This document shows, in pieces, positions 13,786-34,414 of a DNA stretch of 63,420 nucleotides. The notes beneath the pieces are model-generated. The model was not told the DNA's origin, ran no database searches, and saw nothing but the letters and a program-made list of their open reading frames with translations. The position numbers and the translations under genes are program-made. Position 1 is the first letter of the stretch, and each line of letters opens with the position of its first letter. This stretch comes from Candidatus Nitrosopelagicus sp. (GTDB lineage: Archaea; Thermoproteota; Nitrososphaeria; Nitrososphaerales; Nitrosopumilaceae), in NCBI GenBank assembly GCA_028242535.1, contig JAOJYB010000006.1:1-63420 (forward strand), in the 5' to 3' direction.

Positions 13786-13859
13786 GGGAGCGTGGTCTAG
13801 CTTGGTATGATTCTGCGTTTGGGACGCAGAGATCGCGTGTTCGAATCACGCCGCTCCCA
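13786..13859 (+). tRNA. tRNA-Pro (UGG)
   Basis: The 74-nt cloverleaf is complete. The acceptor stem pairs GGGAGCG with CGCTCCC, and the discriminator is A. The anticodon stem CTGCG/CGCAG encloses the loop TTTGGGA, so the anticodon is TGG and the tRNA reads Pro CCN codons. The T stem GCGTG/CACGC encloses TTCGAAT, and the D arm holds AGCTTGGTA. No intron interrupts the anticodon loop and CCA is not encoded. The gene lies in the intergenic region between the divergent MetAP gene and a small membrane protein gene. Confidence 0.97.
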
Positions 13860-28760: not shown

Positions 28761-29048
28761 AGTGCGTGCTGGCCGTAACCCTCTTTCTGTTTTACACATT
28801 ATTTCGCTTTGCAGCCTACCTGAACCAGATGCAGAATTCTATAGTTCTGTTTGGCTTTGCTCCTTGTGGGTCAGATTTCTCATTCTCTTATCTCGGAAAT
28901 CTCAGATTTTATCCTCATCGTACACTCCAAGAGAGATTTTTTTCTGCTCTGTTGCCAACCATCTCTGATTGCCCATCTCCGGACCACAATTTCTGCAAGG
29001 AGAGAGGAGTTTCCTCTGTCGTAACAGCACTGTGCACCAGCTCGCACT
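28761..29048 (-). ncRNA. rnpB: RNase P RNA
   Basis: The catalytic RNA of tRNA 5' maturation is read on the minus strand from 29048 to 28761 (288 nt). The ends form helix P1: AGTGCG-A-GCTGG at the 5' end pairs with CCAGC-A-CGCACT at the 3' end. The universally conserved P4 core is present. The 5' strand AGAGGAAACTCCTCTC corresponds to GAGGAAAGUCC, and the 3' strand ACAGAAAGAGGGTTA corresponds to ACAGAAxxxGGCUUA; CCTCT pairs with AGAGG as P4. Long ORFs across this region on both strands are spurious. The 3' end lies 1 base from the stop of the convergent protein gene. Confidence 0.85.
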
Positions 29049-33861: not shown

Positions 33862-34359
33862 TTGTTCTTACCCGAAAATCTTCGCAATGAATTAAAAACG
33901 CCTCTAGGAAAACTCATTCTTGATTCATCACCTGAAAAAGAAAATTACATTAGAAGTGTATATTCTGAAAAAGTTGTAATCACTGTTGGAGATGCAACAT
34001 CTGAATTGCTAATAGGAATGGGATTAACTCCATTACTACACATAATTGATGGGCAAGAAAAACGTATGAAGCGCTCTCCTCCATTAGCAGATTCAATTAA
34101 TACTGAATTAACTGTGAAAAATAATCCTGGAGAAATTAGCCTTGAGAGTTTCAATCTTTTAAAAACTATCTTTGAGGAAACCCCTCCTATTAGACTAGTA
34201 GTTGATGGTGAAGAGGACTTGTTAGTATTACCTGTATGTCTATTTGCCCCTGAAAATTCTGTAGTAATGTACGGTCAACCCAATGAAGGGCTGGTAATAG
34301 CTGAAATTACTGATGAAGTAAGAGCGAAGATTCAAAAAATAGTAAATCAAATGAAATAA
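33862..34359 (+). CDS. GTP-dependent dephospho-CoA kinase (DUF359)
   Basis: This family phosphorylates dephospho-CoA with GTP, the last step of archaeal coenzyme A synthesis. The product of 165 aa contains the family segments LPENLRNELKTPLGKLI, VITVGDATSELLIGMGLTPLLHIIDGQEKR, ITVKNNPGEIS-like residues, VVDGEEDLLVLPVCLFAPENSVVMYGQP and a closing GLVIAEI. I choose TTG 33862 because the conserved domain begins there; the frame is open into the mrp gene (ATG 33727), but that stretch is the shadow of mrp. The gap to mrp is 4 bases. Confidence 0.92.
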   Translation: MFLPENLRNELKTPLGKLILDSSPEKENYIRSVYSEKVVITVGDATSELLIGMGLTPLLHIIDGQEKRMKRSPPLADSINTELTVKNNPGEISLESFNLLKTIFEETPPIRLVVDGEEDLLVLPVCLFAPENSVVMYGQPNEGLVIAEITDEVRAKIQKIVNQMK

Positions 34360-34414
34360 GGGATGATGAGACGGTGGCTGTATGATTTATGATTACAACA
34401 CTAAACTCTGACCA
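34360..34414 (+). ncRNA. C/D-box sRNA candidate
   Basis: This 55-base intergenic element has all four boxes at archaeal spacing. Box C is ATGATGA (34363-34369), D' is ATGA (34382-34385), C' is ATGATTA (34389-34395) and D is CTGA (34408-34411). The C-D' and C'-D spacers are both exactly 12 nt and would be the two guides for 2'-O-methylation. The D'-C' loop is 3 nt. It begins right at the stop of the dephospho-CoA kinase gene, so it may be cut from that mRNA. Targets were not determined. Confidence 0.6.

Follow-up and report, generated by a model that had tools for sequence, protein, structure and literature searches.

A box C/D sRNA candidate beside a dephospho-CoA kinase gene in Candidatus Nitrosopelagicus, with a predicted target in the 530 loop of 16S rRNA

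The stretch of Candidatus Nitrosopelagicus DNA analysed here (63,420 nucleotides, hereafter the window), from a marine member of the Nitrosopumilaceae, carries on its forward strand, at 33862–34359, a gene for a DUF359 protein of the GTP-dependent dephospho-CoA kinase type (PF04019, E 6e-34), for which we infer a TTG start. The GTP-dependent dephospho-CoA kinases make up the DUF359 family. On the other side of the element lies a SprT-like gene, assigned on the basis of a weak Pfam match that falls below the cut-off. A sequence-only reading had proposed that a C/D-box sRNA begins close to the kinase stop codon and this is borne out: the TAA occupies 34357–34359 and the sRNA gene, read directly from the sequence, extends from 34360 to 34413 on the same strand (about 54 nt). 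Elsewhere, the window also holds an archaeal RNase P RNA gene (28764–29045, minus strand, 173.9 bits) and one tRNA gene (13786–13859, plus strand).

The element has the order GGG-ATGATGA-GACGGTGGCTGT-ATGA-TTT-ATGATTA-CAACACTAAACT-CTGA-CC, with each of the boxes, spacers and the loop of the sequence-only reading lying where it had been placed. The two ends are joined by a terminal stem, GG(G)/CC(C), that is short and displays little covariation in the alignment of relatives: the 5′ arm (GGG, 34360–34362) corresponds to a GGG(G)N preceding box C in nearly all relatives and the 3′ arm (CC, 34412–34413) to a CC(C) following box D, again in nearly all. Thermodynamic folding of the element alone is weak (z −1.5). 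Box C (ATGATGA, 34363–34369) has the form RTGATGA in relatives, its TGATGA being invariant across 33 diverse sequences, as is box D (CTGA, 34408–34411). Between them lie the 12-nt D′ guide (34370–34381), box D′ (ATGA, 34382–34385; its first base is non-canonical and the box is invariant in the alignment of relatives), a 3-nt D′–C′ loop (TTT, 34386–34388), box C′ (ATGATTA, 34389–34395; RTGAT[TG][ATG] in most relatives and degenerate in some Nitrososphaeraceae) and the 12-nt D guide (34396–34407). The loop is 3 nt in most relatives and up to 16 nt in Nitrososphaeraceae. In four loci of that family (L208, L225, L232 and L243) the D′–C′ region is much longer or degenerate (loop of at most 16 nt) and the D′ guide is still fully complementary to the 530 loop. 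The "exact 12/12" spacing claimed for the element holds in this genome but not as a general rule: nearly all relatives have a D′ spacer of 12 nt, whereas their D spacers are anywhere between 11 and 17 nt long. The sole match in the window to our profile of the element, R1, which includes the window copy, is at 34358–34413 (57.6 bits, E 5e-17).

Conservation in related genomes had been suggested as a check on the boxes, and both the boxes and the D′ guide prove to be kept across genomes. BLAST matched the surrounding 111-base region in 25 of 31 congeners, and for many of the more distant ones the match breaks off exactly where the element finishes (query position 84, window 34413); at two Candidatus Nitrosopelagicus loci (L176, L242) the sRNA is nearly identical. 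The 16-mer RTGATGAGACGGTGGC, with one mismatch at most, was found in 219 of 250 family genomes and in 20 of 22 genera, with only a handful of matches for the reversed control. The 16-mer was missing from 31 family genomes; in 23 of these no kinase gene was detected either, and many of the 23 are incomplete assemblies. Of the other eight genomes, in which the kinase gene is present, seven clearly have the sRNA, with guide changes restricted to the outer positions 1 and 10–13; in the eighth, a contig end intervenes. A profile built from 33 diverse copies gave matches in 279 of 400 class genomes, falling in families f1, f2, f3 and f5 of the order, with few and weak matches outside the order and none among the genomes listed for families f4 and f6. 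In a scan of 84,980 species with a sequence pattern, matches came from Nitrosopumilus, Nitrosarchaeum, Nitrosotenuis, Cenarchaeum, Nitrosocaldus, Nitrososphaera and Nitrosocosmicus, as well as from related metagenome-assembled genomes. The scan's single bacterial match (L218) proved on rechecking to have no full box C.

The gene neighbourhood is conserved too. In almost every locus the sRNA begins 0–30 nt 3′ of the kinase gene, and the SprT-like gene is often next. Exceptions are L184, L185 and L217, where the distance to the kinase gene is about 200–800 nt, and L286, where it is about 150 nt; since copies persist at these distances, the sRNA can be kept without direct contact with the kinase gene. 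The suggestion that the sRNA is processed from the kinase transcript is plausible, given the order-wide adjacency and the fact that most archaeal C/D sRNAs have no promoter of their own (PMC7994747), and the transcript of this conserved neighbour is the likely host.

What, then, might the D′ guide recognise? In this genome, neither rRNA nor tRNA yielded a sequence perfectly complementary to the guide core, and in five relatives of at least 99% completeness (G001, G042, G055, G082 and G135) every occurrence of the perfect 9-mer complement, CAGCCACCG, is simply the antisense strand of the sRNA. With a perfect target ruled out, G:U pairs had to be allowed. A search on those terms, covering 16S, 23S, tRNAs, SRP RNA, 5S and RNase P RNA, gave as best partner the 530 loop (helix 18) of 16S rRNA, 5′-UCAGCCGCCGCG-3′, at position 452 of the organism's own 16S. 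Guide positions 2–10, counted from D′, form eight Watson–Crick pairs and one U:G with this site, and 10 of 1000 shuffled guides (1.0%) equal the real score over those positions. Taken alone, the shuffle result in this genome is moderate evidence for the target. The site is identical in 15 16S copies from this and 13 other genomes. A 23S site, GCAGCUAUCC, pairs over 8 bp with two G:U pairs and a mismatch, and is weaker than the 530 loop; no better partner than the 530 loop was found among tRNAs (two genomes), SRP RNA, 5S or RNase P RNA.

The case becomes strong when relatives are considered, because the variation of the guide mirrors the pairing and because the Nitrososphaeraceae guide, CGCGGTGGCTGA, forms a 12/12 duplex with the 530 loop in the 16S of the same genome (locus L330), a result equalled by none of 1000 shuffles. 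Across 140 loci, guide positions 2–9 are invariant and position 10 is constant in 137, whilst positions 1, 11 and 12, which are unpaired in this genome, vary. Much of this set was collected with patterns containing the guide core, so the invariance is in part a product of that selection; the congener search and the seven kinase-located copies are unbiased in this respect. In genus g22 (L287, L288 and L289; genomes of about 0.8 Mb), guide position 10 is A and one 16S pair is lost, with the 16S site unaltered in both genomes read (L332, L333).

By the +5 rule, according to which the methylated nucleotide is the partner of guide position 5 counted from D′, the predicted 2′-O-methylation site is C522 (E. 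coli numbering; position 456 of the organism's own 16S), which forms a Watson–Crick pair with G5 of the guide. The number 522 is counted from the 515F primer site. C522 is close to the decoding nucleotide G530, helix 18 being part of the decoding centre. Several observations count against this explanation, however. Guide position 7 is always U, facing G524, although C would pair perfectly there and is never seen; the duplex formed here spans just 9 bp, one of the pairs being U:G; the three g22 genomes have lost the position 10 pair; and box D′ is ATGA rather than CTGA.

The D guide is a different matter. It differs between genera and varies from 11 to 17 nt in length, and a search of 16S, 23S, tRNA, SRP RNA, 5S and RNase P RNA for a target of the version in this genome (CAACACTAAACT) gave nothing convincing. 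Nor did the D guides of many relatives share a clear rRNA site: the best mean score was 12.2 against about 10.4 for shuffles, with several sites near-equal. Given this variability and the lack of any single clear rRNA site, the D guide is probably an orphan, of which many are known among archaeal sRNAs (PMC7994747), and the element behaves like an sRNA with a single guide. The expectation that the guides would be complementary to stable RNAs thus holds for the D′ guide, with 9/9 core pairs to the 530 loop here and 12/12 in Nitrososphaeraceae, but not for the D guide.

Words such as ATGA and TGAT are frequent in this genome, and box-like motifs might come together by chance in AT-rich intergenic DNA. 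The strict 12/3/12 layout, however, has a single occurrence in the 63-kb window, both strands counted, and none in 200 dinucleotide shuffles, and a looser one (D′ spacer 10–13, loop 1–8, D spacer 10–14) also occurs once, against 0.005 per shuffled window in 200 dinucleotide shuffles. Order-wide conservation already refutes a chance assembly, and we give it next to no weight. A functional alternative is that the element has no rRNA target and acts in cis: as a k-turn in the kinase 3′ UTR, it would be bound by L7Ae and so control the mRNA that carries it. Its position 0–30 nt past the kinase gene in almost all genomes would suit such a role, and L7Ae control of archaeal mRNAs has been proposed (PMC5539422). 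Boxes C and D would suffice for that purpose, yet it is the D′ guide core, matching rRNA, that is the most constrained part, and the element survives at the four loci where it lies about 150 nt or 200–800 nt from the gene. We therefore regard a purely cis-acting k-turn as very improbable.

An alternative that retains a genuine C/D sRNA is that the D′ guide is aimed at helix 34 of 16S rRNA (5′-AUGGCCGUCGCC-3′, own position 987), either instead of or besides the 530 loop. Here, 11 of 12 positions are pairable in this genome. In Nitrosocaldus all 12 are, and its helix 34 outscores the 530 loop over 12 positions; U7 faces a G at helix 34 just as it does at the 530 loop; and it has been proposed that some archaeal guides serve two targets (PMC4644070). 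Set against this, the duplex includes four G:U pairs where published predictions allow two (PMC4644070), and the changes in the Nitrososphaeraceae guide lose pairs with helix 34 (positions 1 and 12) yet complete the duplex with the 530 loop. We consider a helix 34 target unlikely. One guide serving both helices would account for the fixed U7, but the four G:U pairs at helix 34 leave this as only a possibility.

Returning to the reading of the element as a C/D sRNA with a helix 18 target, the resemblance to characterised archaeal sets (Sulfolobus, Pyrococcus, Pyrobaculum and Nanoarchaeum) extends to length (about 54 nt), the presence of C, D′, C′ and D boxes, a 12-nt D′ guide, a 3-nt D′–C′ loop, a position at most 25 nt from a coding gene and a target in helix 18. 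As expected of the class, C and D lie near the ends, C′ and D′ are internal, the guide is of ~12 nt and a terminal stem is present; rRNA complementarity with a target nucleotide 5 nt from the box is seen for the D′ guide (C522) and not for the D guide. The C/D-box sRNA identification made from the sequence alone is therefore supported, by boxes kept in relatives and a D′ guide complementary to 16S. Among Rfam families, sR20 (RF01140; 28.2 bits, E 4e-4, gathering threshold 44) and sR36 (RF01124; 18.8 bits, gathering threshold 55) gave matches below threshold that align end to end with exactly the stretch of the present element, and sR20 shares its AUGA at D′ and AUGAUU at C′. As the guides differ, these are matches of the boxes only. 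Helix 18 is a hotspot in archaea, with 23 predicted 2′-O-methylations at 13 positions in five of seven species, although the mesophile M. maripaludis has no predicted helix 18 sites (PMC4644070). Tte sR114, Iho sR21, Pca sR28 and Sac sR115 also have D′ guides for helix 18 but target E. coli A535 (G515 via the D guide) rather than C522 (PMC4644070). The present sRNA differs further from the archaeal sets in its ATGA at D′ and its unconserved D guide. Archaeal C/D sRNAs are described as poorly conserved and mostly co-transcribed with neighbouring genes (PMC7994747), whereas this one is kept order-wide together with its neighbourhood and guide, mesophiles included. In anatomy and gene context the element fits the archaeal C/D sRNAs, and it departs from them in age and constancy.

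Comparative sequence evidence makes it very probable that the element is an archaeal box C/D sRNA with a D′ guide directing 2′-O-methylation of C522 in 16S rRNA. In this model, the sRNA would be cut out of the kinase transcript and L7Ae would bind the k-turn formed by C/D and the k-loop formed by C′/D′, followed by assembly of Nop5 and fibrillarin. Positions 2–10 of the D′ guide would then pair with 5′-CAGCCGCCG-3′ of nascent 16S rRNA, allowing fibrillarin to 2′-O-methylate C522, the nucleotide opposite guide position 5. The D side, its guide being unconserved, would mainly serve to complete the particle.

It is the order-wide conservation that is noteworthy here, with the sRNA little altered among ammonia-oxidising archaea and their closest kin, the sRNA class itself being already known. 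Archaeal C/D sRNAs are usually regarded as fast-changing and as needed mainly by thermophiles, and ammonia-oxidising archaea, which are among the most abundant microbes on Earth, are mostly mesophiles. Guide, target and gene neighbourhood have nonetheless persisted through the diversification of the ammonia-oxidising archaea, an indication that one methyl group in the decoding centre has a role under selection, and C522 is a named nucleotide that can be tested in cultured strains. We found no earlier description of this sRNA, or of C/D sRNAs from this group, in the main text of the open-access papers searched. A fuller reading, which we put forward tentatively and lean slightly against, is that the sRNA, hitherto unreported and syntenic throughout the order, ranks with the most conserved C/D sRNAs of archaea and directs methylation of C522 in ammonia-oxidising archaea, with a strictly kept U:G (possibly reflecting a guide shared between helix 18 and helix 34, each in the decoding centre) and a second guide free to decay.

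Two congeners contain a further, incomplete copy elsewhere in the genome. L028 (G002:C26, about position 1500) and L029 (G011:C23, about 1506) are second, partial copies of the 5′ half of the sRNA, comprising box C and all or part of the D′ guide followed by a different 3′ half with no clear C′ box. These may be duplicated sRNAs or remnants. Additional near-copies were seen in G043, G054 and G103 in the 16-mer search.
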